The notes beneath the pieces were generated by a model. It was not told the DNA's origin. It did not search any database and was given only the letters and a program-made list of their open reading frames with translations. From Tridacna crocea (lineage: Eukaryota > Mollusca > Bivalvia > Cardiida > Cardiidae): DNA of 64,000 bases. Shown piece after piece: positions 6,270 to 62,110 of the stretch. The DNA is taken from the NCBI GenBank assembly GCA_943736015.1, contig OX031062.1, positions 30,539,462 to 30,603,461 of the forward strand. Reading direction: 5' to 3'. A program made the translations under genes and the position numbers. Positions within the stretch are counted from its first letter, which is position 1. Every line of letters starts with the position of its first letter.

Positions 6270-7774
6270 TCAGTATTTTTTCTTGGATTTACGCTTACTG
6301 GACTTAAGCTTTTTTCTGGCTCCTTCATCTACAGTTTCTGGCATGGCGGCAAAGTTGCTGTCATCAAGCCACGGGCTTTGGGTATCTTTCTTGGATTTCT
6401 TTACGCTTTTTGGAGCATCTGGAAATATTGAAGGCCCGCTGTCAGTAGGAAGTAATAGACGTCCTCTAGGGGTGTCAAATGTGTCTTCGGATGAAGGCTG
6501 GAAGGCCATATTCTCGAAGCTTTGTTCAGTAGATTTACTTCCGTCAATCCGACCTTTTTTCTTTTTCTTACCAACTTTCCTATCACCACTGTCTGTAACT
6601 GGAACGACAGCCGAATGCAAAGGCTTGAAAGATTTTGGAATCTGCTGCAACTGTCTCTGGTTTGTGGGCGATTGGCCCTGTTCGTCATCGCTATAATCTG
6701 GGGAGACATCATAATCTGCCGGTGGCTCACTGTGTATCATTTCAATAGGTGTAGAGTCAGTATTGACGGTAAAATGACTCAAGTCATGTTTCGCTTGATG
6801 ATGTGTATTCCCCTCAGACCAGGCTAGACTGAGAGAAGCCGATTCTGGTCGTTTTGTCGCTGTCGATGGTCTAGAAGCAAGCACTATTTCATCTTCAGCC
6901 AGGCCTCTGTGATGACCAGATTCGTTGTGATCTCCATCATCAGTACTGTAAAGGTTTAACAGACCTGATTGTTGTGGATTACCAGAAAATTTTCCAAACG
7001 TTGTCCCAGTATACTTGTTAAAACCAGTCTCGTCTGAGAAGACAGTTGTTTGATTGTCTTGTGATTTCCTACTTTTGAATTTCGTTACTAGATGCTGCTG
7101 TGTCAGAGCCTCCGGTTCAGTTCTTTCGTCCAAATCTGTAGGCCATGGTGAAGGTCTTGAATCAACACCAAAATAAGAATCCAAAACGTTGAAAGAAGTT
7201 TCAGTTTCGTCTCTTGCATACCGTCCTGTAAACTCCGTCCTATGTCCTAGTCGGGAACTACTCTGTAAATACTCATCTTCATGAAGTCTTCCATGGAGAT
7301 TCTTTTTCTTCTTCTTCTTACAGTAACAGAAAATGACTACAAAGCAACATGTACCACTGACCAGAGCTGTCCCGAAACAAATAATCAGTATAACCCACCA
7401 AGTCAGAATGGTGTCTGGCTCGTTTACAGATTCGATGCAGAAATCTAGATAACCTTTAAATTGGCATTCTGGTACTTCCATTTCCCCTTCACAATAAAAC
7501 ATGATAGATTCCAGCATAACTGATGTAGCACCGAGTTGTCCGACCCTTGGGTGATCTCGAATACACGTTTCAAGCATGTGGTCAGTGAATCCACTGGACA
7601 AATCCGGACAGTCTTCGGTAATAAGAGGGTTATTAAGAACTTCAAGACAATCACTAACCGCCTGTTTCACACTACTATCCGCAGATCTAACAGAAGTCTC
7701 AGTCAGCCTATCAGGGATGTAAATATCGGGTATCGGAATAGTGGATGGAGCCCAAGTGTAATTGGTCAAGGTAC
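6270..7774 (-). CDS. Exon 23 (last): membrane-proximal linker, transmembrane helix, cytoplasmic tail
   Basis: The acceptor is gtctttatag|GTACCTTG; the exon ends at a TGA at 6270-6272 and has 501 codons after the shared one. A final Cys linker (seven Cys, e.g. CIRDHPRVGQ and CQFKGYLDFC) is followed by a helix TWWVILIICFGTALVSGTCC, then a stop-transfer run of six Lys. The tail is ~349 residues, Ser/Thr/Asp-rich and has no recognised domain. It holds three further basic clusters: GKKKKKGR, KSVKKSKKD and the C-terminal KKLKSSKRKSKKKY. Cys residues within and next to the helix could be palmitoylated. The topology is type I. Confidence 0.92.
7323..7403 (-). other. Transmembrane helix of the giant protein
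   Basis: About 27 hydrophobic residues begin with TWWVILIICFG and end with FVVIFCY, flanked outside by acidic NEPDT and inside by KKKKKK. No other hydrophobic stretch this long appears in the traced exons, so a single-pass protein is predicted. Confidence 0.88.
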
Positions 7775-7829
7775 CTATAAAGACAGAGAAAAGATAACAA
7801 TTGAGTGTCTTGCTGTGGCTTAAGAGAGC

Positions 7830-8058
7830 TTAACTCATTACCAAACGGCAAAAGTTTAGGTTCGTCCAAATCGAAAGCATTTGCAGATGACATAATAAAA
7901 ATGACTGAAAATTTGAAATTTGTTCTAGAAAGGGTAGAAAACATTGTGGGAAAAGGAGAAAATGCTGGTTACCAGCATTTTCTCCTTTTCCCACAATGTT
8001 TTCCAAAGGTTTCTTTCTTAGGGTCGTCAAAAGTAGGGATTGTGTGGTAATGGGTTAA
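7830..8058. mobile_element. TTAA MITE (family P), near-intact copy in the last intron
   Basis: It lies 55 nt upstream of the last exon's acceptor: left TTAACTCATTACCAAACGGC, perfect core, right GGTAATGGGTTAA. Open frames over it are translations of the hairpin. Confidence 0.82.
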
Positions 8059-8080
8059 TTCATCTCCATGATAATTGGCC

Positions 8081-8326
8081 TGTAACATCCGAAAAGGGGC
8101 ATTTCGGACATTTGGGTAAAGTGTTGTCTCGGATCAGCCTGCGCAGGCTAATCTGAAACGACACTTTCTGTTTTTACGTAATTTTCTGTTTTGCGCGTGT
8201 CAACTATTGCACAAAATCTAATGTAGCCGTAAAGTGTCGTCTCGGATTAGCCTGCGCGGACTGCGCAGGCTAATCCGTGACGACACTTTACGCAAATATC
8301 CGAATGTCCCTTTTCCCGTGTTGCAA
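8081..8326. mobile_element. GC-hairpin MITE (family G)
   Basis: The two halves are inverted: TAACATCCGAAAAGGGGCAT at the left and its near-complement CCCTTTTCCCGTGTTGCA at the right. Each half holds an AGTGT(C/T)GTCTCGGAT-AGCCTGCGCAGGCT palindrome. The second copy is at 18401. Confidence 0.68.
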
Positions 8327-8438
8327 CCCAATCTTCTCAGACAGACAGTGTAGATGAAGGGTAGAAATCTAATCTAGCATCTGCACTGTCCTCTAGGCCT
8401 TGATTCCTCCATAAAACTATATGAAATTCATTAATACT

Positions 8439-8657
8439 TTAACCTTTTACCACGCACGTCCAAGCTTTAACGGCTCTAAAGAATGTTTTTGAAAACATCG
8501 TGAGAAAAGGAGACAATGCTGTTTATCAGCATTTTTTCCTTTTCTAACTTCTTCTTTCTACCCGATCAAAAACAGGAAATCATGATTTCAGCTACACTGT
8601 CTGAAAATGCTTTCAACTTCGTTTTGTCCAAAGTTATGCCGGTAGGTAAACAGTTGA
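8439..8657. mobile_element. TTAA MITE (family P), worn copy
   Basis: Left TTAACCTTTTACCACGCACG; right end decayed to GTAGGTAAACAGTTGA. Core AGACAATGCTGTTTATCAGC. It ends 64 nt from the exon-22 donor. Confidence 0.55.
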
Positions 8658-8720
8658 CAGATTTCAAGCTGGATCTATGTAAGGTGTCAAAACGATAAAT
8701 CGACTGATTTAGATATTTAC

Positions 8721-10901
8721 CAGTTATATGTCCTTGTAATGTGCCTGTTAATCTGCCTCCTTCGTATGTAGATAAAGCCACATTTGGTCCTGCACCATCA
8801 TCCATGTCTGCAGCTACCAATAACGACAGGTCGACACTGTCACCTCCACAGTATGTCTGGCTGACTTCAACAACACGGTCGAGAGCATGTTGAGTGGACC
8901 AAACACGTGCACAATCCAAGTCAAGACTTACGTAAGCTGATGCAGTAAAAGAAAACCCCGATAGTGTGGTAGTCGTCGTCTTCCGCACATCATATACAGT
9001 GTATTGTTGTATGTCTTCCATAGTTATAAGGATAATAGTAATGCTGTTCTCTTGGGAAAATGACAGTGAAACATAGCACCACGTGTTCATTTTGATTGTG
9101 AGGGTGGTTTTATATGTATTGTGCCAATCAAATAATACCAATCCATCATTAACAGTAAGTTTGATATCACCATCATCAGTCTGTATTACGAGGATTGTAA
9201 ACACTTTTACGTGGATGAACGATACCCTGCTCCAGAAACCGAGGCTAAATTCTGTAAGGTTCCCGTGTATCAATCCGACAAAGCGCAGCTCTTGGTTGTA
9301 CAGATGAATGGAATAACCACCTGATGTCAGGTCTAAATGGGAATCAGCGTTATGTATCAGTGATCCTTCTTTATCGACGACAGCATACTTGTCTTTCAAA
9401 CATCTCCCAATGATGTTTCCTGTTAATCGATTATTTTCCACTCCGTTGAGAAAATGACACCCCAGTTCAGTAGACCATTCACCCTGCGTGCTACCTAACA
9501 AACCTTGTGATGTTTTACCATCATCAGAATCTATCCTTGACAGTAGAATAAGTCCGCCTGTCGAATTGTAGACAAGTATCGAGGAAGAATCAAATGTCAA
9601 ACGAACAAACCGTCCTTCAGTTATTTTCATTGTTACTTTGCCTATAGTCTTGCTGTTTTCATTTATCAGCGGCTTTCCATTTGAGTAAATAGCAAATTCG
9701 GTATTTGATATAAAACGAATACTGAGAACCGAATCTTCACTTTGGATGGCAAACTCTTTGATATATCTGCACATATGATTTCCCTCACAAGGCAGATATA
9801 ACACCTGTGATGATATTTTCTCCGTTCTGAAGTAGATATATGTACCAGGTGTAACAATACTGAAGGAGATTCCTCTGAGGATTACCATGTTAGATCCGAA
9901 TGCAATTCCAACTCTTAATTTTGTGGACTTCCCCTTGGATAAGGCGAAATGACAATCTTCACCAAACCAATTCTCTGTACAGATATTGCAGAGCTGATTT
10001 ACTTTCTGGATAACAATCTCAGTGGAGACAAAGCTTGTCCAGTATTCTTGTACTGTTGCGTTCAAGCCCAGTACTTGTGGAGGACACTTGCAGATACCCT
10101 TTTCACTATCACAAACACCTATAGAGTTGCAAGCCCCGTATGTACTTAGAGGACATATTGATGAGCAACTATTGCCCCAATGTGTATCAAAGCAAAAACA
10201 TTGTCCATTGAATACGTTTCCAAACACGCATGGAGTACAATCTTGTCCACTTGCTCCAATATAATCAGTTATATACGGAAATTGGTTGCAAAGTCCCCTT
10301 AATGGGCTGATACTTGTGTTTAAATTCGAAGCTCTTGCACTTGCGACTACAATATCGCTCGAACCAGCTACTATTGCATCTACCTGTTTTTCTTGATCTG
10401 AGGCAATTAATTCCCTTGTACATATCTCCTCATATGCACCCGCCATGTGTACCTGTGAACTATTTGTGATTTTCTGTGCATAATCGTTTATAAGGTCTAC
10501 ACATTTCTCACGTGCAGCTTTGGTAATATCATCAGAAACCTCTTGTTCTGTGGTAAATTTCCTTGCATTTAAATGTGCACTTGAGGACAGCCTTAAGTCA
10601 GACTTAACCCAGACCGGCGGATGCGTGATAGAATCCATAAGCATGTTTTTAGCGCCATTTCGGTCACCAGCTGCATATCCCGTGCCTTCGTTAAATGTCC
10701 AGAAATTAACTAGGCCACTTGTACTTGCAGTCACTACGATTCTAAAGTTATCTCTGATGATAGAAGGATTATGCGGTCTTGACCAGATACGTATTTCATC
10801 TATTTCTCCTAAATATATACCATAGGCTGATATATTTGCAAGGCCTGGCGATGCATGGCCAATCGTGAGAACTCCTTTCGTTGTAAACATCTGTCTATGA
10901 A
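8721..10901 (-). CDS. Exon 22: end of LamG-8 and module 9
   Basis: The acceptor is agccttttcag|TTCATAG and the donor ATAACTG|GTAAAT (2 nt in, 1 nt out). The first residues complete LamG-8 (SFMK-VHRQMFTTKGVLTIG), followed by EIDEIRIWSRP and FWTFNEGTGY. Then come a Cys linker (~10560-10260), EGF pair 9 (10260-9960, with an insertion QEYWTSFVSTEIVIQKVNQL inside), vWD-9 (9950-9440, signature reduced to QGLLGSTQGEW) and LamG-9 (9390-8721). The open frame continuing to 8566 is intron and overlaps a worn TTAA MITE. Confidence 0.92.
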
Positions 10902-10959
10902 CTGAAAAGGCTTGAACTTCTGTATGACCTATAATGCCATAAAGTTCTTTATTAGCTAT

Positions 10960-11342: not shown

Positions 11343-11402
11343 ACTGCCTTATGCCAGGTCACATCGGACATCTTTGATACATATTAGAAAAAAAAATCAT
11401 AC

Positions 11403-14400
11403 CTTTCATAAAAGAGTTATACAACTCCAGCACTTCACTGTCCCATCCATAGGCAATACTGATCTGGTTCCATTCGCCTGTCTTCAACAAAATGCCTGAT
11501 GACATTGTCTCGCCATTGCAGATTATCCGCAGTCCAGTCTTGGTGTATACCAGTAGTATGAAAAATTCTCCTGTAGTGTACGACAACAAAATTCCAGCTT
11601 GAGGTCCCGAAGGTTTCACATGAAATTCTATCGTAAAATCTCCATAGGGTAGAAGCACATTTTTTACAGAAATACCAGTCCCTGAGAACGAGAGACAGTT
11701 GGATTCGTGTGGTGACAAGTATGATCCTTCAATGATGCTAATAAAACTTTCATTCTGGTATCTGTGGCCATCAAAGAACAACTTAAGTGATGCTTCTGTC
11801 TGTGGTAGTAAGCATGTCGAGTTTACAGGGGATGACTGTGGACAAGGTGTTGTATGTAAACTACAGTTTGCTGTTCTAATGGCAAGCTCTGTGTCACAAG
11901 AAGCCAAGATACCGAGAAGGTTTCCAGACAACCATTGGGTCTCAGATATCAAAACTGTTAACATGAGCCTCTGATTGACTGACGAAAGTCGTATGTGTAA
12001 ACTTAATGATAGAACTGTTAGCAGAATCGTGCTTTGACTTTCAACTTTTAGCTCAACATTTCCAAGGACAAGTTTGTTATACAGATGTAAAGATGTTGTG
12101 CTCGACAGTATGACTACACCATTGTCTAAAAAAGCATCGTGACTTAAGTAGTACTGATCAGAGGCAAGATCAAGTATAACCCCGGTCAAACAAGGATGTG
12201 TATATTTCTCTTGCAAGCATGGCGAGAATCTTCCAACAAGGCTAAAATGATAGGACGAATGTGCTACTGCTGTAAGAAACTCATTAATATTTACGTCAAT
12301 CATAATTCCATCAAAGGTAAGTATTTGTCCGAGTAAGTTAATCTGCGCCACAATAGTTTCCCCGTTTGTGTTATTATTCCAGTTTAGCAAAGTGCAATTT
12401 TCCCCAAACCAGCCTGTTTCACAGTCACTGCAATCATCGCCTGTCCATCTACCACTGCAATGGCATGTCCCATTTACATTACAAGTTCCGTGGTTGTTAC
12501 ATGGGCTATTTGCCCTGCCTGGACAGACACTGTCGCATTCGTTGCCATAGAAACCATACCGACATTTACAGTCAGCATCACTGTAGGTTCCAAAAGTACA
12601 ATTATGAATTCTGTCTAAGATCCAACTTGGAAGATAATTCTCAAATGTAAGTAACACATTGAACAAGGATGATTTTCCATTCCCATGCATTTCACAATAT
12701 GTCACAAACTCATATATAATGTTAACCTCAAGCGAAGTCGTCTTTGCTTTAGATAGTTCAGAGAAACACAACTGCTTGAACCATTCGTATCTGAGCGAAG
12801 AAACATTTTTACAGAGACTCAAGTTCGATACGCTCTCAAAGAAATCTGTGCACAAAGATTCATTCCCCGGTCTGCTCATCCCGTTATTTACCTGGTCGTG
12901 TCGTATTTCCTTAAGAATCAGGTCCGATGGAACCCAGACAGGTGACTGCCAAGGAAATTCAGGTAGTGTGAATGTGTTTCCTGCAACCGAATCTGAAATA
13001 AGTGTTCCGGCTCCTTCTATAAAGCTGTAAAATGAAGAAAGCTGTGAAATGAATCCAGAAACTCTAATGTTCAATTTTTTAGCCTGATATATAACTGTAG
13101 TCGGAATCGGTTCCTTCCATAGGGCAAACTCTGATATAAGACCATCAAAAGTGAAATTGCTTAGTATCTGTTTAGTTTGTGAAACTGATGGTGTATATTC
13201 ACCAAATGTAATCACTCCGTCTTCTGCAAATATTTCTGGGCAAGTCGCATTAAAGGTTTTCTGGTTAATATGTCCATCCTCTTCGAAGTGGTACAACATC
13301 ACGTTGTTATGACTTCTATCAAATGTTAAGATAATCTGGTTCCACGAATTCAACGTTCCCCCGAAATTAGCTGTAAAAACCTCATAACCACACTTTATTT
13401 GAATTGGGTTAGTATTCTGAATATTAAAAGTAGAATTTCCACCGTAACTAACGATAATACCGCCATACATGTATGGTTTGAAATATACTGATATGCTGAA
13501 GTCCTTGTTTCTTGTTGAGTATTCATCTTCAAAAACGATAGGTATTGTTGTAGTAGCTGCTCCTTTAAATGACAGTGCATAGCCATCGACACTCAAGTGT
13601 GTTGTTGATACATTCAGTACGTTCATAATTGGACTGTTCGGAACCGAGAAGTTCCTCGAGAAAATTTCTAGAATCATGTCCCCTGATAACCCTGAATAGT
13701 CCATTGCATTTATATCACAGGACCCTAGTATACCCAAAGCCCCAGAGCATTTCTTTGAATGGACGTTTTTGATAATACAGCTTAAAAATTGCCCGTTTCG
13801 AACTATAAGAATATTTACTGTTATACCATCAAGTATGTTTATCGAGATTTCAGAGGATGACAATAAGGTTATGGACATCTTATGGTCTATAGAGCTGGTG
13901 ATATTCCCTGGATGAAATATTTCTTCGTCTAGAAATATGTCAATTTCATTTTTCTGAATGGATGGTAATAAAATGATGTTTCTGTCTTTGTTTGATACAA
14001 AGATGGCAAACACACACATTCCAGCTGTGCAAGGGGCTTGATAAACATGGATATCGATATTACCAGCACTGAACAGCCTGAACACACCTGTCATAGTAGG
14101 AAATGAAATCTGTTGGCCATTGAACAAATGATAATATCCCACACTCAAAACAGCTGCAGAAAATGGCTCATTGGATATTGAAGTTGATGGCTGTATGATG
14201 CTACAGTCACTACCAGTCAAAGATCCATCTGCTGTTGTTGTGCACTTGGAACATTCAGAGTTCCCATTCCAGTTCCACAAACAAGTACAAGCGCCACTGG
14301 TCCCACAGTCACCATGGCTATTACACGGATTATCAGAGCCGCCTGGACATGTTTCATTGCAGTGCTGATTGAAGTAACCATGGTAACATATACATGTACC

Positions 14401-16582
14401 TGTCTCTTCTGACAGGAAACCAAATTTGCATGGGTTATTACAATTGGCTAAATTTCTGGTTTCTATATCAAGACTTAAACAGAACGCATCTACTGCATCA
14501 TATTTTAAGTTACCTGATTTGTAACATATCTTAAGAAGATCTATTATGGCATTAACAGCCAAGTAGTTTGACGATGTGACAGCCTTTAAGTGTAAACAGT
14601 GGTCATAGAAATATTGCTTTGTTGCATTGTCAGTTGTATTACAACTCGACTCAATTACATCTGAATTAAAAATTATGCTACACCAATCTTTTGCAAGGCT
14701 TTCTAACGTTTCGTTTCTAAAGTGGAACTGTACTGTACTTTCTACGATAGCTGAACTGTACTGCACATCTGAGGATTGCCATATTGGTGATATCCACGGA
14801 TATTCTGGAAGCACCAATTTCTCGTTCTTGTTGTGGGTAACAGTTTCTGGACCATCCCCTTCGTTAAAATGGTATGCAAGTATCTGAGCACTTCTCGTTA
14901 TCTTGGGATTCATCTTGTACAATTCTAGAACTTGATTTGCTTCCAGTGCTTTATTCCAAACAATAAAGTCATCTATATTTGATTTCAGACCATTAAAGTG
15001 TTGATACCGTTTCACATCAGACGAAGGAAATGTTTGCCCGATTGACAAAGTTCCAGAGCCAGAGAAAAGGTTGAGAGGGAGGTCTATGCTGTATTTGGAT
15101 GCTACATTATCGTCAGAAATTACATACAGTGAAGTTGAACCTGTGGCAAAAACGTAGGACATAACGACCTTAGTCCAGGTGTTTGACGTCAATGACAAGT
15201 TCGTAAGCTGCCTTACTTCATCGTTGGGCAAGTATACATTTATTGAAAGCAAATTAAACTCGCAAAGCAGGGTGAAGGTCGATCCTGCAGCAAAGGAAAA
15301 CAGTGTTTCTTTTTCTGTATCAATGTGATGCTTCACCATAAGTTCGAATGTAATGCCGAGCAAATTGCCATCTCTCAACGTTACTGTTTGTGCAATACTT
15401 GAACCATTGAAAAAAAGATTGAAGCCAGCTAGTGACTGTGCTTTCTCATTCAAACTGGGATATAAAATGAAGCTATCACACTCGTCTATGTAACCATCTG
15501 TTGTTGACAATTCATAGCTAAAATTTCCAATAGGTATAGTATACGCACTGAAAGATGTAAGTTTCTGCAATACAGGAATTGTCCTATTACAAATCCCGAA
15601 TAGCGGTGTTCGATGAATATCTGGAAGACCCATGTTGTTGTAACTAGTTGAGAGGTTATAACCTAAAAGTCCTGCAGTAAATGGTTTAAGGATATTTGGG
15701 ATGGTAAGCTCAGCGTGAAGGTACTGTGACTCAACAGAAATTTCTATTGAAAAGTGGCTGGTTACATCCAGAACAATGCGACGATAGCTGTCTCTGTACA
15801 CGCTGAATCCTTCGAAGTAAACTGCATGGTCTAATGGGCTCTGTACATCGTTTATAAACACTATTGGCTTCGAATCTTTCTCTTTTCTTGACTTCACTGT
15901 GACAACAGCAGCTCCCTTATCACCATCTTGTATTCTTACGGCTATGAATGATAGACAAGAATAATTTTCGTGACAAATAATGAACTTTCCCTCGACAACG
16001 ATGTTGTCAGCAACACTCAGTAAGAGTAGCTCGCCATGAGTTTTCACAGAATGGATCACTTCGTCAAGAGTATAGGAAATTCCGAGCCGTCCAATGAATG
16101 CAAGGGAGTCATTTCCGTGTTGGATATTAGTTTTTACTGCTGTACAATTATCATTTAGCCATCCATCTGAACATCGACTGCAATCTATGCTTCCTTGCCA
16201 ATTCACGGGACAATTACAGCTACCAACACTATTACAAGTTCCAAAGCCATTACATGGATTTCCTGCCCCACCTGGACAGACATTTGTACAGTTTATTCCC
16301 CAGTATCCATCCTCACAAATACATTCCGATACTGATGATGAACGTTGCCCAAAAGGACAGTCAGGGGAACACAATTCAGCCATGAATGGATAAAGGTTGA
16401 ATTCGTTTTCAAACTCTGCACAAGTTCCTTTAGCAGGCCAAATAGTGAGATTCTGGGCAATCCGGCAATCGTCTGCAAATGATATGATGGTATTTGCGAT
16501 ATCTTCACCATTTCTCTTTGCATCTGTACACTCAAACATTGCTAGGCTCAGCTTTGTTGCCATGGCTTCTACTGAACAGATT
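11403..16582 (-). CDS. Exon 21: 5,180-nt exon encoding modules 6 and 7 and most of 8
   Basis: The acceptor is atttcgttgcag|AATCTG; a competing AG lies 11 nt further in, but only this one fits the 2-nt remainder of exon 20 (SSLA-K-ICSVEA). The donor is ATGAAAG|GTATGA (1 nt left). Approximate layout: linker and EGF pair 6 (16500-16140), vWD-6 (16110-15640), LamG-6 (15440-14780), linker, EGF pair 7 (14430-14200), vWD-7 with LGILGSCDINAMD (14170-13690), LamG-7 (13590-12960), linker, EGF pair 8 (12600-12390), vWD-8 (12340-11820) and the first half of LamG-8 (11740-11403). CPGGAGNPCNGFGTC, CPGGSDNPCNSHGDC and CPGRANSPCNNHGTC mark the three EGF pairs. Confidence 0.93.
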
Positions 16583-19392: not shown

Positions 19393-19684
19393 TTAGCAAG
19401 TGACGAAGACATGTCCTTAAATATACTTGTGCACAGTGGGTCATCTGCGGAATACAAAGTATCCCTCTTTCTCCTCATTGGGTAACTCAGCTCGGGGCCA
19501 AATTTTGCAAGATATTTTGTTGAACGTTTGCGTCTGGCAGGCAAGGTTGATGTTGTGTCATACTGGGGGCTATCTGACGTTCTCTGATAACACGATCTTA
19601 GCGGTTCATTATCTATCTGTAGTGCAGAGTATGGATTTTCCAAGTCTGATGGGCTCTCATGGTTATGATTCAGCATTCCATTGT
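19393..19684 (-). CDS. Exon 20: linker of module 5 with two furin-type RRKR sites
   Basis: The acceptor is tgctctatttcag|ACAATGG and the donor TTGCTAA|GTAAGA (2 nt in, 2 nt out). The exon encodes NGMLNHNHESPSDLENPY, then TLPARRKRSTKY and SYPMRRKRDTLY, and ends in the Cys-rich linker (DDPLCTSIFKDM). Both RRKR motifs fit the furin consensus R-X-K/R-R and lie 16 residues apart in a polar, probably exposed segment. None of the other eight linkers shows such a site. Cleavage would split the ectodomain between modules 5 and 6. Confidence 0.84.
19464..19475 (-). other. Furin-type cleavage motif RRKR (downstream site)
   Basis: This is a second Arg-Arg-Lys-Arg, followed by Asp-Thr, 16 residues after the first. 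Two sites so close suggest removal of a short peptide between them, which is an inference. Confidence 0.6.
19524..19535 (-). other. Furin-type cleavage motif RRKR (upstream site)
   Basis: The codons read Arg-Arg-Lys-Arg, followed by Ser-Thr. The motif meets the R-X-K/R-R consensus for proprotein convertases. It is seen in the sequence; use in the cell is an inference. Confidence 0.6.
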
Positions 19685-20701: not shown

Positions 20702-20823
20702 TCAGAACTGCGTCTTCGTCGAAATCATAATAACACAGTTTAATATCGTATCTGTTGAGAAGTCTCTCAACCTCAGCCATTGGTTTTGTGAACATATCAA
20801 GGGCCATGTCAACATCAAGTGCT
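20702..20823 (-). CDS. Exon 19: C-terminal strand of LamG-5
   Basis: The acceptor is cttcgatttcag|AGCACTTG and the donor TTCTGA|GTATGT (start 1 nt, end 1 nt). It encodes ALDVDMALDMFTKPMAEVER and then IKLCYYDFDEDAVL. In the other modules LamG ends with W..A...V......L..Y.FNEG.G, so YYDFDEDAVL is the equivalent closing strand. Joining restores FASE-ALDVD upstream and AVLN-NGMLNH downstream. Confidence 0.8.
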
Positions 20824-24404: not shown

Positions 24405-24952
24405 TCTGAGGCAAAAGCTAAGGAATCAAAGCAACCAACGAAGTTGTCCTCCGTTTTCCATCCAGATTCATCCTCAATTATTTGAAACTTGCCAAGAGAC
24501 AGGCTGCCGCCGTTCCTAAATGGGTTGGTATCATGCGGAAAATCTCGGATTCTATATAGCTCTAGACCGCTTTTGTTTTCTTCATTTAGCAGGTAAATGT
24601 TTAATTTTTGAAATCTGGCAGACCATGAAAGAAGGATTTGGTACCATGTGTTATCTTCGAGATCCAGGTTAGTGACCCATTCATGTTTTCTGCCATAGTT
24701 CACAATGAGAGAACCATTGTACCTCAATATAAAAGCATTGTTGATAGAATACGATAATAGGACACCATAACAGCTTGAACAAATTTTCACATAAAATGAT
24801 ATGGTCGCCTCTCTAGTGCTTTCATCAAACAGGTTAACCGATCTAATTGAAGCTCCAGCCTTATTACAACACAAGGCTTTTCCGCCAACTTTTCCGGTGA
24901 CATTAGTAGTATCAAATGTTGATGTACTACTAAAATCGACATCTGCTGAACA
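24405..24952 (-). CDS. Exon 18: LamG-like domain, module 5
   Basis: The acceptor is atttattttcag|TGTTCAGC (phase 0) and the donor CCTCAGA|GTAAGT (2 nt left). After CSADVDFSSTSTFD come the LamG strands TISFYVKICSSCYGVLLSYS, AFILRYNGSLIV and the core LEDNTWYQILLSWS, with RNGGSLSLGKFQ and FVGCFDSLAF at the end. W-x-x-I-x-L-S-W-S and G-x-L-x-L-G are standard positions in laminin-G/pentraxin-like folds. The pearl-like array lies immediately downstream in the next intron. Confidence 0.87.
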
Positions 24953-26084: not shown

Positions 26085-26519
26085 ATAAGTCCTAGATTGT
26101 CCTTGAATAACAGAGGAGCTGCTATAAGTCTCGTAGTTTCCCACGGGCAGAGACAACAGGTCTTCAGGAATGTGTCTGCAAAGACCACCGGTTATGTTAG
26201 TGTCCTTTGGTAGATAGGCATCAATTTTGAAAAACGTTTTCGCTCTTTTTACATCTAGAACTAAACCAATAGATTCTAGAGAGAGGCTGACAGTCTTTGA
26301 ATTCCGGTTGGCCAAATACATCTCACCAAGTGAACTGTCAATAAGCTTACTTTTCTTCCATTTGCGTCCATTGATCAGAGCGACCATCTTCTGCTTTGCA
26401 CCATCAGACATCTGTTTGTTGACCAGTTCAAAGTCAATGTAATAGTCTTTATGGGTAACAAAGACTCTATCTACATTTACAGTATCAGCATTTCCCACTT
26501 TCGAAACAGTTTGTCGTAC
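26085..26519 (-). CDS. Exon 16: middle of vWD-like domain, module 5
   Basis: The acceptor is ttcttttgtag|GTACGAC and the donor ACTTAT|GTAAGT; it is 145 codons, phase 0 at both ends. It includes VRQTVSKVGNADTVNVD, FVTHKDYYIDFEL and AFDRV-like strands continuing from exon 15, then an LCRHIPEDLLSLPVGNYETY stretch. The open frame beyond the donor to 25917 runs into a TTAA MITE and is intronic. The sequence is more diverged than other vWD copies, so the domain call leans on its position. Confidence 0.78.
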
Positions 26520-29842: not shown

Positions 29843-32800
29843 CAGTATTCTTAAGTTATCAGCCTCAAGAAAGATAACTCGATCAAAGGCAAATGGCAAC
29901 TTCTTCCTTACTGCATTATAGCTAGTGAAGGCTCCTTTTCGATAGGCTTTACAGTGCATCAGGTCTGAATCTTTACCAGCAGTTGGGTCTGATTTAAATT
30001 CAGAACAGTCAATTCCCGAAAAGAAAGCCGAACAAGAGCCACAAGCTTCATCGCCATTCCAGTTTTCATCACACTGACACTCCCCTGTTTCAATATTACA
30101 TGTTCCATGATGATTGCAGGGACTGCTTGCACCACCTGGGCACTGCGACTGGCATTCTTTTCCAAAATATCCTGGTAGGCAGACACACGTTTCATTAAAT
30201 ACTCTGCCGAAGTAACACTTCTCCCCACAGTTCTTTCCTATTGTAATGGGATAAACCCTCGACCCAAAAGAATTGCATTCCTCATCTGAAGGCCATGACT
30301 CATAGTGGTTCTTTATCTTACATTCCCAAGCTGCATTTAAAAAAGAGTCAATACTGTTGTCCAAGCTTCCAGTTATTTTTATATCATTTTGACACCGTAG
30401 GTACATAAACTGTAACATATTTGGTAAATCTTTGCATTTCATTTCTAATGTCGTTGCCAAATATTCACACTTTTCTTTGACTGTTGAATTCGTAAAAGAT
30501 GCGGCAGGTAGTTCATCCAATGGAGACAAAGCAATAGTTAGTGGGCTGTCAATTTCCCAAGAGAAGACCGCTGTTGACGAAACAAAAGCCCTTCTTCCAT
30601 GGATGTAATCAAGCATTGTGTATCCAGATCCTTCCATAAAGTTAAACAAAAGTGAGGGGCGTCCTAGCAAAATTCCATGACTACTATTAGCAATATTTAT
30701 TTCAAAATGAACTGAGAATTCATCTACAGTAACTAGTCTGTTAAACATGAGAAACCTGTTGATTGACAAGATTGGAGCTTTGAGCCCAATCATGACAGTA
30801 GATATGTGACTAGTGCCTGCAGTGTGCCATTTACCGATAAAAAACATGGAATCCTCTCTGAATGGAGATCTAAATTTTATCAGCTGTTCCATAATGTTAA
30901 TTTTTGCGTATCTGTAACCTTTTTCATGTATAATGTGAACCAACATATTGCCTGACACTTCATTCAAAGCAATTCCAATATTTGTCCAAAAGTTTTCAAG
31001 AACATGTATACCTAACTCAAACGTGTAATTACCAAATGCAATTACAAATCTATGATTGATTATTACAATTCCAAAAGTTGTTAAATGATTTGATATGCTA
31101 AATACTGGTCCATCAGACACACTGAAAAACTTGATCCTGATCTCGATGGTACGTGAATTGCTTTCTTGTGATAGAATGGCCCTGTTAAGCTCAGGGAGTA
31201 TGATGTAGCCGTGTGTTAATCTTAGAGAGAACCCTGGCGTTCCAAAAGCCATGTCTGTGTCATAGAAAATTGTCTTCTTTTGTTCCAAAGAGACGTATGT
31301 GTAATACTGATTCAGCATAACAGACCCTATTTCATATTGTTTTAAGGTTTCAGCAAGACCAATTGAGTCTATCAAGCATGTTAAATTGTTAGAGGCACAA
31401 GACATGGTTGACAAGTAAGTGCATTTACCGAATACTCCAGTTGGTGAAAGGCAGTCAGATGTGTCTATCTTCATATTCAAATCAAAACCGTTTCCATGTC
31501 TTAATATGAGAATGGCCAAGTTATTTGGGCCTGTTATTTCAAATAAAGTTGGGCTTTTCTTGACAACTCTGTATCCAGACTGTAGGTCAAAAGAATACGT
31601 ATGCACAAGTGTTCCATTTAAAAAGATGACTCCTTCTCTAATTGGAGAAATAATCAGAACAGTATTCTGTATATTAACTGCTATACTAATTATTCCATAC
31701 TGATAGTAAATTGTTGCCCCAAGCTGTACTTCTATCTGAAGGCCACTGGTAGAGAAAAGTTGAAAGGCTCGATTAGCATTTTTCACCTGCAGTATGACAC
31801 CATCAAATGTCTTTAAATAGCCATTTCCAGAAAAGGATGCTGTATGAACTGTTTCGTGCAAGTAAATACTTCCTGATATAACAGCTTGACAATCTGTGCC
31901 ATAAAACCCATTAGTACAAGACGAGCAATCCTTACCCTGGTAACTTTCCTTACAATTACATAGACCTGTTGCAGAATCACAATGACCTCTGTGTTTACAT
32001 GGGTTTGCAGCACCACCAGGGCATTCCTTGGCACAGGTAGCTCCCCAATAACCATCGGCACAAACACAAGTTAATCCATTACCTTCTGTCATTGGATTGA
32101 CGCATGGTATATCACAGTTCTCTCCAACATAACCAGCAATGGTGAAGTCTTCACTGCAAAGGTATTTCGTTGGGTCAGTGGCTGTTCCATTCGGGTTGAT
32201 ATCAGCAAAATTGCTGTAACATAACGTGGTAAAAGATTGAAGAACAATAACTCCTGCCTTTTCATCGTTTTCTCTAGCGATTTCTTCAATACAGGTAAGT
32301 CTATAAAGGTCAACTGTGTTTGAACTCACATTAAAACAGTTGTTTAGAATATCCGGTTGACTAAAGTATCGCTGACATATCCGTCTCGCTAGCTGGTAAG
32401 CCTCTTCACTTTGGTAAGTCACATACGGCTCAATTGGTAAATGGTCCTCTGGTAACGAGGAGGGTCCGATATTAGCATTTTGATAACCAAATGGGTTGTA
32501 TATGGTCATATTACTGAATCCAGATTGATCAAAAATGGTGTTTCCATTTGAAAGATCGAAATTAAAATTCATTGTAGGATATCTTTCTTCATTCAAAAAC
32601 ACTTTCACATTGTCTATTTCCCCAATAAAGGATCGGTCAACCACATTTGTGATGCCAAAATCAAATGATGGTATGGGTCTTCCAAATATAAGTCTGCCAC
32701 CATTTGGAAAGATATTGCTGTTGCTTGCAAAGACACTTTCTTGAGGTTGAAATTTAGAATTCGGGAAAGTGGCATATATCTTCACAGTGTCTGTCAACGA

Positions 32801-39314: not shown

Positions 39315-39469
39315 CAATAACACTTGAATTTGAAGATTAATTCCACTAGGAAGAGAAACATCAGTTAGGATAAATTGGCCTGGCATGTAACTAACATATT
39401 TTGTCCCATCATATGTTTGAAACTGTCCATCATTGTATAACATTGCACTGTACCAGCTGATGCTCCTAT
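39315..39469 (-). CDS. Exon 14: start of vWD-like domain, module 1
   Basis: The acceptor is caatctatcacag|ATAGGAG and the donor TTATTG|GTAAGT (start 2 nt, phase 0 end). It reads SAMLYNDGQFQTYDGTKYVS, then a strand ending in INLQIQVLL. F-x-T-Y/F-D-G is the first strand of von Willebrand type D domains. The phase-0 intron after INLQIQVLL falls at the same domain position as the intron that ends exon 15 in module 5. Confidence 0.8.
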
Positions 39470-41769: not shown

Positions 41770-42004
41770 TGGCTCTATTGGTCCCAGTCAGTGAGCAATC
41801 ATCACCAAACCACCCATCTTTACATGTTTTACATTGTGATGTTAATTCTGCTCCTTCATTACACGAACATGTTCCATTGACAGGATCACAGGTTCCTTTT
41901 CCAAAACAAGGGTTACTTCCACCCCCAGGGCATTCATTGGCACATGCTGGTCCCCAGTAACCATGGATACATTTGCAAATGCCTTGAACAGGTTCAAGTA
42001 CAGT
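41770..42004 (-). CDS. Exon 13: EGF pair opening module 1
   Basis: This exon has no start codon in frame. The acceptor is gtttaatcacag|ACTGTAC (phase 0) and the donor GAGCCA|GTAAGT (1 nt left). It encodes CKCIHGYWGPACANECPGGG, then NPCFGKGTCDPVNGTCSC and CKTCKDGWFGDDC. This is the same EGF pair that opens every later module: C.C..GYWG..C...CPGG...PC...GTC, then C..C..GW.G.DC. Confidence 0.84.
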
Positions 42005-42440: not shown

Positions 42441-42558
42441 CAGGTCTGGTTTGGTGTGACAAAGAGCTGATATATTCACTTTGGCTTCAACCTCCTTGCC
42501 AACAGCCAATGAATGTACATACCATCTTAATCTTGTTAACTCACTCATTGAATATGGG
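42441..42558 (-). CDS. Exon 12: second half of the FGYENPN domain
   Basis: The acceptor is gtttttcag|CCCATATT and the donor GACCTG|GTATGT (start 1 nt, phase 0 end). It encodes PYSMSELTRLRWYVHSLAVG, then KEVEAKVNISALCHTKPDL. A final strand containing RWYVHSLAVGK matches the W-x-V/L-x-G ending expected for the domain begun in exon 11. The open frame on either side is intronic. Confidence 0.78.
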
Positions 42559-43705: not shown

Positions 43706-44000
43706 CCAACTTCAACAGCATATTGTACAACTCCTGGGATAAATTTAGCTGGTGGACTAGTGTCATTGAGTAACTCTGTCCCATTATAGAAGCCATTGTC
43801 ATATGGTGATGATATGTATATGTTGTTAGGATTTGGGTTTTCATATCCAAACCATGCTGCAAATGTTTGCCCACCATCAGCAGTATGTATACACTGGAAT
43901 ATTGGTACAATCTCTGCATTGTCTACTATACCATCATCAGGATCAGCATAATGTCCATGATTATCTATACAACTTATGTTACAGTGTGGTCCTACCCAGT
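43706..44000 (-). CDS. Exon 11: end of EGF array and FGYENPN beta-sandwich-like domain (first part)
   Basis: The acceptor is catgctttcag|ACTGGG-type (start 2 nt) and the donor GTTGG|GTGAGG (2 nt left). After WVGPHCNISC the sequence leaves EGF style and reads FQCIHTADGG, AAWFGYENPNPNN, DNGFYNG and PPAKFIPGVVQY. The pattern F-G-Y-x-N-x-N, then N-x-F-x-x-G, then P-x-x-F-x-P-G is one I know from a beta-sandwich domain of secreted bacterial and some eukaryotic proteins; I recall no accepted function. It separates the EGF array from the nine-module part. Confidence 0.82.
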
Positions 44001-45093: not shown

Positions 45094-45213
45094 TAGATGC
45101 ACATTCTGTACAGTGTGGCTTCTTCCATCCCTGAAGACATTCAACACAGCCTGTTTCTGGTTTAATCCAATGGCCATTAACTTCATCATCATAGCACTCA
45201 CATATATTGCCTC
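45094..45213 (-). CDS. Exon 10: EGF-like unit
   Basis: No start codon lies in the correct frame, so this exon is invisible to ORF calling. The donor is CATCTA|GTAAGT. The acceptor is either ctaataaag|GAGGC (used here) or three bases further in, at aaaggag|GCAAT; both keep phase (start 2 nt, end 1 nt). It reads NICECYDDEVNGHWIKPETG, then CVECLQGWKKPHCTECAS, continuing the CxxC style of exon 9. The last codon is completed to Asn by exon 11. Confidence 0.78.
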
Positions 45214-47676: not shown

Positions 47677-47865
47677 CTAATTCTGTGGCAAACCCATGAT
47701 CACAGAAAGTGTCACATGTTGTATTATAACCAATGTAGCTTGCCAGACAACTGTCGCAATTTTCTCCAACAAAGTTTTGAACACAAGAATCACAAGACAG
47801 TCCTTGGAAACCATGGTTGCAAACACATTGTGGTATGTCTGTACCATCAAGCAACAAGCAATCAC
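47677..47865 (-). CDS. Exon 9: EGF-like/laminin-type EGF unit
   Basis: The acceptor is ttttatgtag|GTGATTG and the donor AATTAG|GTAAGA (start 2 nt, end 1 nt). It encodes CNHGFQGLSCDSC, FVGENCDSC and YIGYNTTCDTFCDHGF. The C-x-x-C pairs (CDSC twice) after a GY/GF motif resemble laminin-type EGF units, which differ from the plain EGFs before. The open frame continuing past the donor to 47528 is intronic. Confidence 0.83.
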   Translation of the reverse strand: MIACCLMVQTYHNVFATMVSKDCLVILVFKTLLEKIATVVWQATLVIIQHVTLSVIMGLPQN

Positions 47866-53084: not shown

Positions 53085-53225
53085 CATTGCCATTACAAGG
53101 ATTCTCTAGGGGTCCAGGACACACATACTCAGAGCAGTTGTCTCCCTTGTATCCAGGGTTACATAAACAGATAGACTTGCCTCCCTTTCTTATACATTGG
53201 CCATTATCAGAACAGTCAGGATCCC
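53085..53225 (-). CDS. Exon 8: EGF-like repeats
   Basis: The acceptor is tgtcttcag|GGGATCC and the donor GGCAATG|GTAAGT (start 2 nt, end 1 nt). It encodes GDPDCSDNGQC, a CLCNPGYKGDNC end and VCPGPLENPCNGNG. It starts a fresh EGF after exon 7 and is completed by exon 9 (NGNG-DCLLLDG). The downstream intron, about 5.2 kb, holds the large element with long terminal inverted repeats. Confidence 0.85.
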
Positions 53226-53940: not shown

Positions 53941-53998
53941 CAGAACAATCTAAATGCTCACAAAAAGCACCTGTATATCCAGTATTACAGTCACATTT
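53941..53998 (-). CDS. Exon 7: 58-nt exon completing one EGF-like unit
   Basis: The acceptor is tttttctgcag|AAATGTG and the donor GTTCTG|GTATGT (phase 0 in, 1 nt out). It encodes KCDCNTGYTGAFCEHLDCSG with the last codon shared. It supplies the second half of the EGF whose first half (GTCQSITNGTE) ends exon 6. It is short enough that only splice signals and phase reveal it. Confidence 0.78.
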
Positions 53999-55208: not shown

Positions 55209-55417
55209 CTCTGTTCCATTAGTTATTGACTGACATGTCCCAACATTGTTGCACTGTATCTTACAATTGAAATCATCATAGCAGGGATCACATTTACAGA
55301 AAGTGCTGAATGGTGGGTCCTCAGTTCCATGTATGCAGTCATATTGACATTGTGGTCCCATGGAATTAATACAGTTTACACATCGTGGTGGCCAATGATC
55401 CTTACCATCACATACGC
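55209..55417 (-). CDS. Exon 6: EGF-like repeats
   Basis: This exon has no in-frame start codon in a long open frame, so simple ORF calling misses it. The acceptor is gtatttaag|GCGTATG and the donor ACAGAG|GTATGA (start 2 nt, end in phase 0). It reads VCDGKDHWPPRCVNC, then CQYDCIHGTEDPPFSTFC, CDPCYDDFNC and CNNVGTC. CIHGTEDPP is the same cassette position as CVHGT in exons 2 and 4. The phase-0 end matches the phase-0 start of exon 7 exactly. Confidence 0.83.
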
Positions 55418-55932: not shown

Positions 55933-56094
55933 CTCTTGAATTGCATTCTGGTTCCCCTTGACACTTCCACTGATTGCAGCCTTCCCCTTTATAGTAGGTA
56001 TCACACTGACATATTTGTGTTGCTATATTACAAGTTCCATGACCAGAACAGCTGACGTTCTCACCAGGGCAACCACGAACCTCACATCTTTCAC
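55933..56094 (-). CDS. Exon 5: EGF-like repeats
   Basis: The acceptor is ttttttcacag|GTGAAAG and the donor CAAGAG|GTAAAG (start 2 nt, end 1 nt). It encodes ERCEVRGCPGENVSC, CSGHGTCNIATQIC and a KCQGEPECNSRG ending. The first codon completes SGFWG-ERC from exon 4. The adjacent intron carries a (GAGT)n microsatellite just upstream of the acceptor, at 56172-56212. Confidence 0.86.
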
Positions 56095-56500: not shown

Positions 56501-56520
56501 CTAAACTATAATGACCTTAC

Positions 56521-57027
56521 CCCAGAATCCAGAATCACACTGACATGTCTGATTTACACAGGCACCTTTACTATTACAGATCTGGTCACAAGCTGGCCCA
56601 GTATAGCAATCATCACAATGACATGTACCATCTGAGTGTGGTGTACCATGAACACATGGATACTGACAAGCATTTCCCATCCAACCAGAATTACATGTAC
56701 ATTTAGGCTGGTCTCCTTCTGACCCGCAAACACCATTATTATTACAGTCTGGACTTCCTGGACAGTCTGGGATATGACATGATACAGGATCCACTGTCCA
56801 GCCTGGATCACAAGTGCAACGTCCTTGAATACATCTTCCATGTCCACTACAGGAGCTTCCATGCCCTGGACAGGCTTTGTCTGAACATTGTGGACCCCAG
56901 TAACCCTCTGGGTTGTGCCCTGACCCGTCCCCACAAATACATGTATCATTTTGACAAACACCATGGTTGTTGCAGGTAAGCTCACAACTGTCTCCACTTT
57001 GACAGCTGTTGTCACACACACAAGTTC
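56521..57027 (-). CDS. Exon 4: six or so EGF-like repeats
   Basis: The acceptor is atctttcag|GAACTTG and the donor TTCTGGG|GTAAGG (start 2 nt, end 1 nt). Visible units include CDNSCQSGDSC, CNNHGVC, ACPGHGSSCSGHGRC, CHIPDCPGSPDC, CVHGTPHSDGTC and CNSKGAC. The GCPG/HIPDC/CVHGT order repeats the cassette of exon 2. The region just upstream (57028-57130) stays open but is intronic, because the acceptor before GAACTTG restores EGF spacing. Confidence 0.88.
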
Positions 57028-57845: not shown

Positions 57846-57873
57846 GAAAGAAAATTATAGACAGAAAACATAC

Positions 57874-58062
57874 CACTATCCATTGGTATCTGCTTTCCAT
57901 GACAAGGTGTGTTACAGTCTATTCCCATCCATCCTTCAATACACTGAGTACAGAATGGCACTTCTACACTGTCATTACAGATACCACGTCCAGAACAATT
58001 CAAAGGACATTCAGCAGTCCAACAACCATCCCCAATCCAGTGCTTGTTACATGTGCAAACAC
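57874..58062 (-). CDS. Exon 3: EGF-like repeats
   Basis: The acceptor is attgtag|GTGTTTGC and the donor ATAGTG|GTATGT (start 2 nt, end 1 nt). It encodes VCTCNKHWIGDGC, then ECPLNCSGRGIC and CIEGWMGIDC. It completes the EGF begun by exon 2 (GSCIVSQAGKI-G-VCTC) and hands on to exon 4 through a shared Gly codon (MDSG-TCVCD). The spacing of cysteines is kept across both junctions, which supports the splice choice. Confidence 0.85.
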
Positions 58063-59057: not shown

Positions 59058-59686
59058 CTATTTTTCCAGCCTGTGACACAATACAACTTCCATGTCCAGT
59101 GCAGTCCAAACCATTTTGACCTGGGCAACCAGCTTTCTCACAGACATCCCCTCTCCAGCCTTGGTATCCACAGTCACATGACCCATTAACACACTGACCA
59201 TGTCCTCCACACAGTAAATCGCACTCAGGTCCAGTGTAACACGGGTCACACGCACAGAATTGTGTGGAAAGATCATCTGCATCTGGAGTTATCACTGTCC
59301 CATGAACACATTGCCGAACACATGTTAGCCCAAAATACAGTCCAGTACAGTTACAAACAGGCTGGTCCAATGGTAAACATGTTCCATGGAGATTACAGTC
59401 ATTCTGACACTTTGCAATATGACATCCTACACCAGACCATCCTGGGTCACAGGTGCAAGCTCCAGTGGTGGGATTGCACATTCCATGACCTGTACAGGAG
59501 ATATCAATTCCAGGGCACCCTCTCCTATCACATGTCTCTCCTCTCCAACCACTAAATCCACAGTCACATTTCCCTTCATTAGTACATGTACCTTGACCAT
59601 TGCACAGGACATCACAAGTTGTTCCAGAGTAACACTGTTCACACATACACTCAAAAGTTGTAGCATTTTCTTGCCCATGGACACAC
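59058..59686 (-). CDS. Exon 2: EGF-like repeats, about one and a half cassettes
   Basis: The acceptor is gatttcag|GTGTGTCC and the donor AAATAG|GTTTGA (start 1 nt, end 1 nt). It contains CVHGQ..., CNGQGTC, GCPGIDISCTGHGMC, CHIAKC, CVHGTVITPD, CGGHGQC and GCPGQNGLDCTGHGSC. The order CVHGT / CN.QG / GCPG / CHI..C repeats, so the array is built from a cassette of about four EGF units and ~160 residues. WRG-type sequences (GWRGETCD, GWRGDVCE) mark equivalent positions in consecutive cassettes. The ~2.1-kb intron between this exon and exon 1 holds two TTAA MITEs and an element with internal tandem units. Confidence 0.87.
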
Positions 59687-59956
59687 CTGAAATCACCAAA
59701 AGATAATCCCTTTACCACACAACCTCTCTGGAAAATGGCTTTTGAAAACATTTTGGGAAAGGCAGATGGTGGTGGTAAACAGCCTTCACACCATTTGCAA
59801 GAAAGTTTTCTACCATTTCATGGACAAATCCAATCATCTGACCAACATTTTGTCATCTGCAAATCCTTTCAAGTGGAACAAGTCTAAATTTTGTCTTCCA
59901 GATAAGAGTTCAAGCTGATACAAGTCACCAATCCTTTAATTTAAGTTCTCTACTCC

Positions 59957-60146
59957 TTAACCCTTTACCAAACGACAAAATTTTAGACCTGTTGGAATTG
60001 AAAGCATTGGCTGATTACAGTTTCAGTGTGGCTCATGTAAAATGAGTTTTCCTTGATCGGGTAGAAAACATTCTTGGAAAAGGAGAAAATGCTGGTTATC
60101 TGCATTTTCTCCTTTTCCCACAATGTTTTCAAATGGCTTCTTATAA
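59957..60146. mobile_element. TTAA MITE (family P), right end replaced by another element
   Basis: Left TTAACCCTTTACCAAACGAC and a full core (CTGGTTATCTGCATTTTCTC). It breaks at TGGCTTCTTATAAG, where the 60147 element begins. Confidence 0.72.
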
Positions 60147-61116
60147 GATGGCCAAGATGGCCTTGGATGGCTCACCTGAATTTTTGAGATGACCACAGCC
60201 TATTATTTTTTTTTTTTTTTTTGAGGTATTGAAACATTGGAACCAAAATCATAATTTTGCCAAGCAATTTTTAAAAGGTCACCTGTAAAAGTCATTTTGA
60301 AATCTGAAGAATCAGTTTGAAAAAGAAGAATTTTTAAGAATTCTTCATTTCTGTATAAAAGCAAATAGCCCCATCCACAAATTTTCAAGAATTTCATCAT
60401 GTCCGTATAGTGCAAGTAGCCCCCATTCACAAGAGCCATGTTTCTTGACCAATCAAAATTATATGAACAATTTTTGAAAAGGGTCAGCCCACGAACATCT
60501 CTGTGAAATAATTTCAAAATCTGTCCAGCCGTTTCAGAGAAGAAAAATTTCCATATAGTGCAAGTAGCCCCAATTCACCAGAGCCATGTTTCTTGACAGA
60601 TCAAAATTTCGTGAACAATTTTTGAAAAGGGTTAGCCAAAGAACATCCCTGAGAAATTATTTCAAAATCTGACCAGGGGTTTCAGAAAAGAAGAATTTTT
60701 ATGAATTACTTCATTTTTGTATAGTGCAAGTAGCCCCCATCCACCAGAGCCGTGTTTCTTGACGGATCAAAATTTCAAGAACACTTTTTGAAAAGGGTCA
60801 CCCAAGGAACATCTCTGTGAAATCATTTTAAAATTTTGCCAGCGGTTTCAGAGAAGAAGATTTTTAAAGAATTTCTTTGAAAATTCCATTTGGTTACCAT
60901 GGCAACCATAGTTTTTGACGGAATCAAATTCTGTAAATAATTTTTAAAGAAGACCTCCCAAGGAACATTCCTGCCAAGTTTGGTCTGAATTGGCCCAGCA
61001 GTTTAGGAGGAATTGATGTTTTAAGAATTGTTGATGAAGCATGACGGACAATGGACAACGGACACCGGGTGATCCTAAAACCTCCCCTTGAGCACATTGT
61101 GCTCAGGTGAGCCAAG
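60147..61116. repeat. Element with ~180-bp internal units, ends in GTGAGC hairpin
   Basis: About three units repeat TTTCAGAGAAGAAGATTT, GTATAGTGCAAGTAGCCCCC, CCATGTTTCTTGAC and GAACATC(T/C)CTG. The left end GGCTCACCTGAA and right hairpin GAGCACATTGTGCTC-AGGTGAGCC mirror the 45.2-kb element. Near the right end GATGTTTTAAGAATTG is an unoccupied TTAA site. Confidence 0.62.
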
Positions 61117-61507
61117 AAACATTGTGGGAATGTCAAGTGACTGGCATGTGACTAATGATGCCTAAATTCCATAACATCCTCGGATGCTTTGTTTGAAGCT
61201 TCGTCTGCATATTTCTTGTATCTAAATGAGCGTGTTGCTCATGTAAAAAAGACCATGTTTCCTGTTGGTGTCGACCTGGGCCAATGTAAATCCCTGATTT
61301 CTCTTGTTGTTGGATGGTTTTCAAATACTGGGGTTTTATGAATTTAAATCAAAAGGCTTCTGGAGAATAAGGATTATTTTTTGTATTTTTGTAAAATATT
61401 CGTCCCAAAATCTGTAGGGCCACCTTTAAATATATTATACTTAAAAGGTACAGAGAGGCACCTCCATCTGTAGAGGTAGTTGATTGCAGTAAAATCAGAA
61501 AGTACCT

Positions 61508-61737
61508 TTAACCCTTTACCAAACAATCCCTGGTTTTTACAACCTTTAGATAGAAGCTTTTTGAAAACATTGTGGTAAAAGGAGAAAATGCCGGTAACCA
61601 GCATTTTCTTCCTTTCCCACTATGTTTTCAACCCTGCTGGAAACAAATTTCAAACTGTTCAACTATGTTTAATTTGTCGTCTGCAAGTGCTTTCACTTGG
61701 GACTGGTCTACAATTTTGTCGTTTGGTAAAAAGTTAA
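61508..61737. mobile_element. TTAA MITE (family P), near-intact copy
   Basis: Left TTAACCCTTTACCAAACAAT, core GAAAATGCCGGTAACCAGCA, right TTTGGTAAAAAGTTAA; 43 nt from the exon-1 donor. Confidence 0.82.
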
Positions 61738-61779
61738 CAAAATCTTGAAGTGTTTACACACTAACAGGAAAAGGCTTAC

Positions 61780-62110
61780 CTGTACTGACACTTGTCTCCA
61801 ATAAATGGTTTGTCACAATCATAACATCTAGGTTTCGAGTCTCCTTGTCTTTGTTCACATGTTGCTTTCACCCCATTACAGTCACAGTCTGGGATATGAC
61901 AACCATTTCCTCTCCACCCTTGTTCACAGTCACACTGACCTGTGGCTTTATTACATGTACCATGTTCTGTTCCCATACAGTTTTCTGGCCATCCTGGACA
62001 ACCTATCTCATCACACTGTTTTCCCTTGTAGCCGAGGTCAAAGTCACAGATACACTGACCCTGATCATCACAATCACCATGACCATTACATACAGTATGA
62101 CAGGATATCC
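61780..62110 (-). CDS. Exon 1 in window: EGF-like repeats, start of the N-terminal EGF array
   Basis: The acceptor is ttttcaag before GGATATCC and the donor is ACAG|GTAAGC; start phase takes 2 nt and the end leaves 2 nt. The exon encodes Cys-rich repeats of the type VCNGHGDC, GCPGWPENC and HGTCNKATGQCDC, then a CHIPDC unit. This is the style of tenascin/teneurin EGF arrays: short repeats with Gly-Cys-Pro-Gly starters and no clear calcium-binding motif. The reading frame enters from an upstream exon outside the window. Joining to the next exon completes an Arg codon and gives CQYR-CVHGQ, a natural EGF boundary. Confidence 0.85.

Follow-up and report, generated by a model that had tools for sequence, protein, structure and literature searches.

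Crumbs unites EGF-like and laminin-G (LamG) domains on a single-pass membrane protein with a C-terminal PDZ-binding end, teneurins possess YD repeats and other domains beyond their EGF array, and in VWDE a von Willebrand D (VWD) domain is followed by EGFs. Zonadhesin has been described as a single-pass membrane protein that combines EGF and numerous VWD repeats with a C-terminal cytoplasmic domain, the precursor being processed in pig and the zebrafish protein having nine VWDs and a transmembrane segment (PMC1325057). VWDE itself is presented as a secreted class with a VWD domain and EGFs (PMC9117669). Here, we analyze a locus of the bivalve Tridacna crocea, contained in a 64,000-base stretch of contig OX031062.1 (assembly GCA_943736015.1, forward-strand positions 30,539,462 to 30,603,461; hereafter the window). 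Its minus strand carries exons for an EGF array, a domain with the motif FGYENPN, nine modules of two EGFs, VWD, LamG and a C8-like part, a single transmembrane helix and, last, a basic tail. We consider it fairly probable that these exons form one gene for a type I membrane protein with 7,000 residues or more, which would serve, tethered to the membrane, as a rod for adhesion or in the glycocalyx and is possibly cut by furin. In the literature searched, represented by partial sources, no protein of this layout is named; together with Pfam and single-exon protein searches, this agrees with an earlier note on the window, made from the letters alone, which could assign the layout to no named family.

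The gene model comprises 22 exons running from 62110 to 6273, with a TGA stop at 6270-6272, and encodes 7,000 residues with 364 cysteines and, ahead of the helix, 86 N-glycosylation sequons. All 21 junctions join in phase and the joined frame is free of stops. Reading frames, splice scores and the succession of modules guided the placing of exons; because splice sites were partly picked to preserve phase, the in-phase joins are not independent evidence. Donor 8721 and acceptors 10928, 16582 and 44000 were also guided by relatives or by the EGF/LamG pattern, and the replacement of donor 8598 and acceptors 16606 and 43991 by 8721, 16582 and 44000, on the basis of relatives or EGF pattern, took the length from 7,046 to 7,000 residues. 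A simple codon-score exon model was dropped because it overlooked exons 12-14 and 16-19 or set them in the wrong place. The weak donors are those of exons 2 (score 1.6) and 18 (score 1.7). From the earlier proposal of 23 exons and about 7,038 residues, the in-phase, stop-free join and the outer coordinates stand, and the counts, given there without exon coordinates, differ slightly from ours; it rightly took the N-terminus to be missing, as the gene starts upstream of 62110, beyond the window, and the model has neither N-terminus nor signal peptide. The longest open frames of the minus strand measure 2,479, 1,770, 800 and 519 codons, with cysteine-rich frames further upstream, and no open frame above 150 codons was found on the plus strand of the window, which contains no N and has a GC content of 34-40% in 4-kb blocks.

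Three lines of evidence independent of phase bear on the exons. A profile of 620 positions, built from the modules of the window and of relatives and excluding module 5, was compared with 1,547 six-frame open reading frames (ORFs), 814 of them on the plus strand. All 15 ORFs that matched at E<=1 lay on the minus strand and overlapped model exons. Most of these hold modules contained in the profile; exon 17, which it does not contain, reached E=1e-24, and exon 16, likewise absent from it, just 0.14. When spliced, module 5 scored 231 bits over profile positions 2-486, which exceeds the sum of the 112.5, 7.5 and 83.1 bits for its pieces in exons 15, 16 and 17, with 4.3 bits as the highest of 200 shuffles. 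For the last part of the module (profile 540-619), the score was 5.7 bits when spliced and 9.0 bits (E=0.0045) when exons 18-20 were taken alone. Relatives obtained in three protein searches, with single exons as queries and within reach of annotated proteins up to about 4,300 residues (P0001-P0010), bridge 12 of the 21 junctions, the other nine being bridged by none. Ten of these, from 5|6 to 14|15, are spanned by P0010, itself a gene prediction, with identical columns as low as 2/25 at 14|15; 20|21 and 21|22 are spanned by P0008 and P0009, whose origin in transcript or genomic DNA is not stated. A near-perfect palindromic repeat with the core GGAGAAAATGCTGGTAACCAGCATTTTCTCC occurs, at up to 7 mismatches, in 34 places of the window and in none of the exons, which make up 21,002 of the gene's 55,841 bases. 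With the profile matches, the module 5 score and the bridged junctions as independent support, the observation of the earlier note is confirmed. Copies of the palindrome lie, for example, at 4974, 7955 and 19886, and it is perhaps a foldback element or one resembling a miniature inverted-repeat transposable element.

The domain layout given in the earlier note holds up. Pfam was run on 21 of the 22 exons singly, exon 7 being too short. The scan returned VWD (5e-20), Laminin_G_3 (1.2e-12 and 8.4e-16) and EGF families that were mostly of teneurin type, the best EGF_Teneurin match (E=2.1e-20) being in line with the tenascin/teneurin-like array noted before. Taken singly, exons 6, 12, 14, 16, 18 and 19 gave no family at E<=0.1, exon 11 none at E<=1 and exon 22 none at E<=0.01; against PDB sequences, exon 15 gave weak EGF matches only (best E=0.0031). 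The nine modules, recognized as four-part units in the earlier note, share 20-45% identity in pairwise best local alignments. The FGYENPN domain (43998-42459), likewise recognized there, has a counterpart at the equivalent position of the sea-cucumber protein P0010. It had no Pfam match, with thresholds of E<=1 for exon 11 and E<=0.1 for exon 12, and a piece of P0010 had no match among plasmids at E<=1; judged by its sequence, we regard it as an unclassified domain kept in sea cucumber. Hydropathy analysis revealed one strong helix (mean 2.59, runner-up 1.50), in keeping with the single membrane span and basic tail proposed before, and P0003, P0008 and P0009 likewise carry a hydrophobic stretch. 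This arrangement would give a type I topology, the basic tail of some 350 residues (6273-7328), which ends in SKKKY, lying in the cytoplasm. Across exon 22 the protein is 72% identical to P0003 over 451 residues without a gap, and the tail can hardly be aligned with P0008 and P0009; an alignment of the four tails, which end in SKKKY, SKKK, DLREV and EESGF, retains scattered identical columns only.

The fourth part of each module, the "Cys linker" of the earlier note, is probably a divergent C8 domain. Pfam C8 matched 2 of 25 linkers, and the best eight structural alignments of the linker were all with VWF or MUC2 chains. The predicted structure of module 7, folded as an example, displays a VWD fold. 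With Foldseek alone, the linker had no match that reached E<=0.001, the best being VWF at 1.2; a linker profile found no PDB match below E=0.22. If the linker is a C8 domain, each module represents a VWD-C8 pair of the kind present in VWF, mucins, zonadhesin and FCGBP, with LamG between its halves. The CGxCG motif, which functions in multimerisation, is absent from the model and from P0001-P0010, and no GDPH motif was found. The linker between modules 5 and 6 contains two RRKR motifs, and a furin cut of the precursor at this place is thus plausible from the sequence; it would yield two subunits, one of about 4,000 and one of about 3,000 residues.

Close relatives match exon 15 (P0001, 79%), exon 20 (P0004, 77%) and exon 22 (P0003, 72%); each lies on a contig of 5,197,117 bases, presumably the same one. 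More distant are P0002 (29%), P0005-P0007 (36-37%), P0008 (33%), P0009 (31%) and P0010 (24%). The last of these is annotated in the sea cucumber Apostichopus japonicus as "hypothetical protein BSL78_07877"; at 27% identity it runs collinear with model residues 580-2886, from the EGF array through an FGYENPN-like domain and modules 1-3 into the beginning of module 4, and its gene model begins within the EGF array and stops within a module. P0002 is collinear with residues 1116-3524, P0008 with 4108-6708 and P0009 with 4061-6654. Given relatives of this layout, the family is conserved. In a tree of 40 modules, a branch separates each of the groups m1, m2, m4, m6, m7, m8 and m9 as a whole from all other rows, with support from 90/92 to 100/100, so that seven of the eight position groups with several rows unite; m3 needs two changes, and m5 is a single row. 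Sea-cucumber modules 1 and 2 group with the other modules 1 and 2 (support 97/92 and 90/92) in this tree, which has no sea-cucumber rows for modules 4-9, several long branches, an odd composition of P0010 module 2 and a tool warning of false joins. Because the position groups hold, the nine-module array is probably old, its modules having become distinct before these lineages parted.

Considering these features, the EGF array and the FGYENPN domain would stand outermost, followed by nine beads, the helix and the cytoplasmic tail. The VWD-C8 pairs may form rigid, disulfide-rich beads separated by EGF spacers, the LamG domains might offer binding sites for a ligand or glycan, calcium may be bound, and the precursor would be cut at RRKR between modules 5 and 6. 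While the anatomy is well supported, the function as a zonadhesin-like, membrane-tethered adhesion or glycocalyx protein is inferred. More tentatively, and with some doubt on our part, the protein could belong to an ancient bilaterian family of giant receptors, in which LamG sits between VWD and C8 in nine tandem D-type assemblies, furin separates two large subunits between modules 5 and 6, and the order of beads was fixed early and kept in this lineage and in echinoderms, with vertebrates supposedly lacking it. The VWD-C8 proteins, mainly mucins, VWF and zonadhesin, would gain with this protein a membrane-anchored branch with a LamG insert, and a very large conserved surface protein would so far have been annotated as "hypothetical". 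Since the modules keep a fixed order, further genomes could serve to test how old the array is and how it grew.

Table. Exons and features of the gene model in window coordinates
Feature	Position	Strand	Evidence and remarks
Exon 1, EGF array	61780..62110	-	AG before 62110; in-frame ATG at 62150 is a candidate alternative start
Exon 2, EGF array	59058..59686	-	EGF_Teneurin E=2.1e-20; weak donor (1.6)
Exon 3, EGF array	57874..58062	-	EGF_Teneurin 9.5e-6
Exon 4, EGF array	56521..57027	-	EGF_Teneurin E=1.8e-17
Exon 5, EGF array	55933..56094	-	EGF_2 6.9e-5; P0010 spans junction 5|6
Exon 6, EGF array	55209..55417	-	Cys pattern, P0010; alone no Pfam family
Exon 7, EGF array	53941..53998	-	P0010; too short for own Pfam scan
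Exon 8, EGF array	53085..53225	-	EGF_Teneurin 6.2e-9; P0010
Exon 9, EGF array	47677..47865	-	EGF_laminin 5.3e-6; P0010
Exon 10, EGF array	45094..45213	-	P0010; alone DSL 0.03 only
Exon 11, FGYENPN domain	43706..44000	-	Aligned with P0010; alternative acceptor 43991; no Pfam match at E<=1
Exon 12, end of FGYENPN domain	42441..42558	-	P0010; no Pfam family
Exon 13, module 1 EGF pair	41770..42004	-	EGF_Teneurin 3.3e-5; profile E=4e-30 (module 1 in profile)
Exon 14, module 1 VWD start	39315..39469	-	Profile E=5e-8 (module 1 in profile); alone no Pfam family
Exon 15 (7,377 nt), rest of module 1, modules 2-4, module 5 EGF pair and VWD start	29843..37219	-	VWD 5e-20, Laminin_G_3 1.2e-12; P0001 79%, P0002 29%
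Exon 16, module 5 VWD	26085..26519	-	Weak alone (E=0.14, no Pfam family); supported by order and joint score
Exon 17, module 5 LamG	24405..24952	-	E=1e-24, profile without module 5; Laminin_G_3 0.0019, below cut-off
Exon 18, module 5 LamG end	20702..20823	-	Weak donor (1.7); spanned by no relative; no Pfam family
Exon 19, module 5 linker with two RRKR and C8-like start	19393..19684	-	Spanned by no relative; no Pfam family
Furin-type site 1, RRKR, residues 3990-3993	19524..19535	-	Sequence motif
Furin-type site 2, RRKR, residues 4010-4013	19464..19475	-	Sequence motif
Exon 20 (5,180 nt), rest of module 5 linker, modules 6, 7, most of 8	11403..16582	-	Laminin_G_3 8.4e-16; P0004 77%, P0005-P0009 31-37%
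Module 7, folded as example module	12646..14493	-	Within exon 20
Exon 21, module 8 end, module 9 to LamG	8721..10928	-	Donor 8721 score 4.7; P0008, P0009 span both junctions
Exon 22, module 9 C8-like domain, transmembrane helix, basic tail	6273..7774	-	Stop 6270-6272; P0003
Transmembrane helix, residues 6626-6648	7329..7397	-	Hydropathy 2.59

Besides the exons, the intron that separates exon 17 from exon 18 holds a tandem array of 7.5 copies of a 156-base unit (22443-23607), and arrays with units of 148-168 bases were observed at 45296-45852 and 60402-60877. An ORF of 130 codons at 1162-1551 on the minus strand shows a weak match to a seven-transmembrane chemoreceptor family (E=0.013, below cut-off).

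A single gene and transcript for all exons is likely, its weakest joint being exons 18-20, which no relative spans. Several observations weigh against it and would suit two adjacent genes, one with the EGF array to module 5 ending around exons 17-19, the other starting before exon 20 and comprising modules 6-9, helix and tail: junctions 15-19 are bridged by no relative, each distant relative covers one half of the protein only, exons 18 and 19 alone lack profile support, and, of the five introns from exon 15 to exon 20, three measure 2.8-3.6 kb. Still, we consider two genes unlikely, as such a split would cut module 5 midway, yet spliced module 5 reaches its 231 bits over exons 15-18. Moreover, the joined frame is stop-free there, the relatives of 72-79% identity to both halves lie on contigs of equal length, and the other two introns measure about 1 kb, the longest of the gene (5.2 kb) being elsewhere. 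That the model comes from genomic sequence would also suit a decayed pseudogene or an annotation artefact. This we find hardly credible in view of 7,000 codons without a stop, exons avoided by all 34 palindromes and the gap-free similarity to P0003.

Assignment to a described family faces difficulties of a different kind. EGF_Teneurin, EGF_TEN and EGF_Tenascin matches might suggest a relative of teneurin, tenascin or VWDE, but Pfam reported no domain of teneurin or tenascin other than the EGF type in the scanned exons or relatives, and the domain order argues against all three, making this kinship very improbable. With VWDE, the shared VWD and EGFs are an unspecific likeness, the nine modules, LamG and transmembrane helix having no counterpart in the available part of its description (PMC9117669). 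A member of the zonadhesin/FCGBP family that gained LamG in its repeats, and that would serve gamete or mucosal binding, is suggested by the VWD and C8-like repeats, the EGFs and the single transmembrane helix; zebrafish zonadhesin, too, possesses nine VWDs and a transmembrane segment (PMC1325057). We judge this rather improbable, since LamG sits between VWD and C8, the CGxCG and GDPH motifs are missing, and Pfam detected neither MAM nor TIL in the 21 exons or in P0001-P0010, EGF-type domains taking the place of TIL and the N-terminus beyond the window being able to hold a MAM. Because MAM and TIL were not found, we do not file the protein as zonadhesin.

The reading that we prefer, one gene for a membrane-tethered rod, thus places the protein among several known systems. 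With Crumbs, it shares EGF, LamG and one transmembrane helix, and differs in having VWD, a C8-like part and an SKKKY end in place of the PDZ-binding end of Crumbs. With the D assemblies of FCGBP, gel-forming mucins and VWF, it has the VWD fold and the C8-like fold in common, whereas its own assemblies carry an inserted LamG, do without CGxCG, GDPH or a Pfam TIL, and are anchored in the membrane. Zonadhesin bears a short tail as well as MAM, TIL and mucin regions; here, LamG lies within each VWD-C8 pair, paired EGFs take the TIL place, and the tail, with its roughly 350 residues, is not clearly short. With nine VWDs and a transmembrane segment in zebrafish and a processed precursor in pig (PMC1325057), zonadhesin provides the nearest working parallel.

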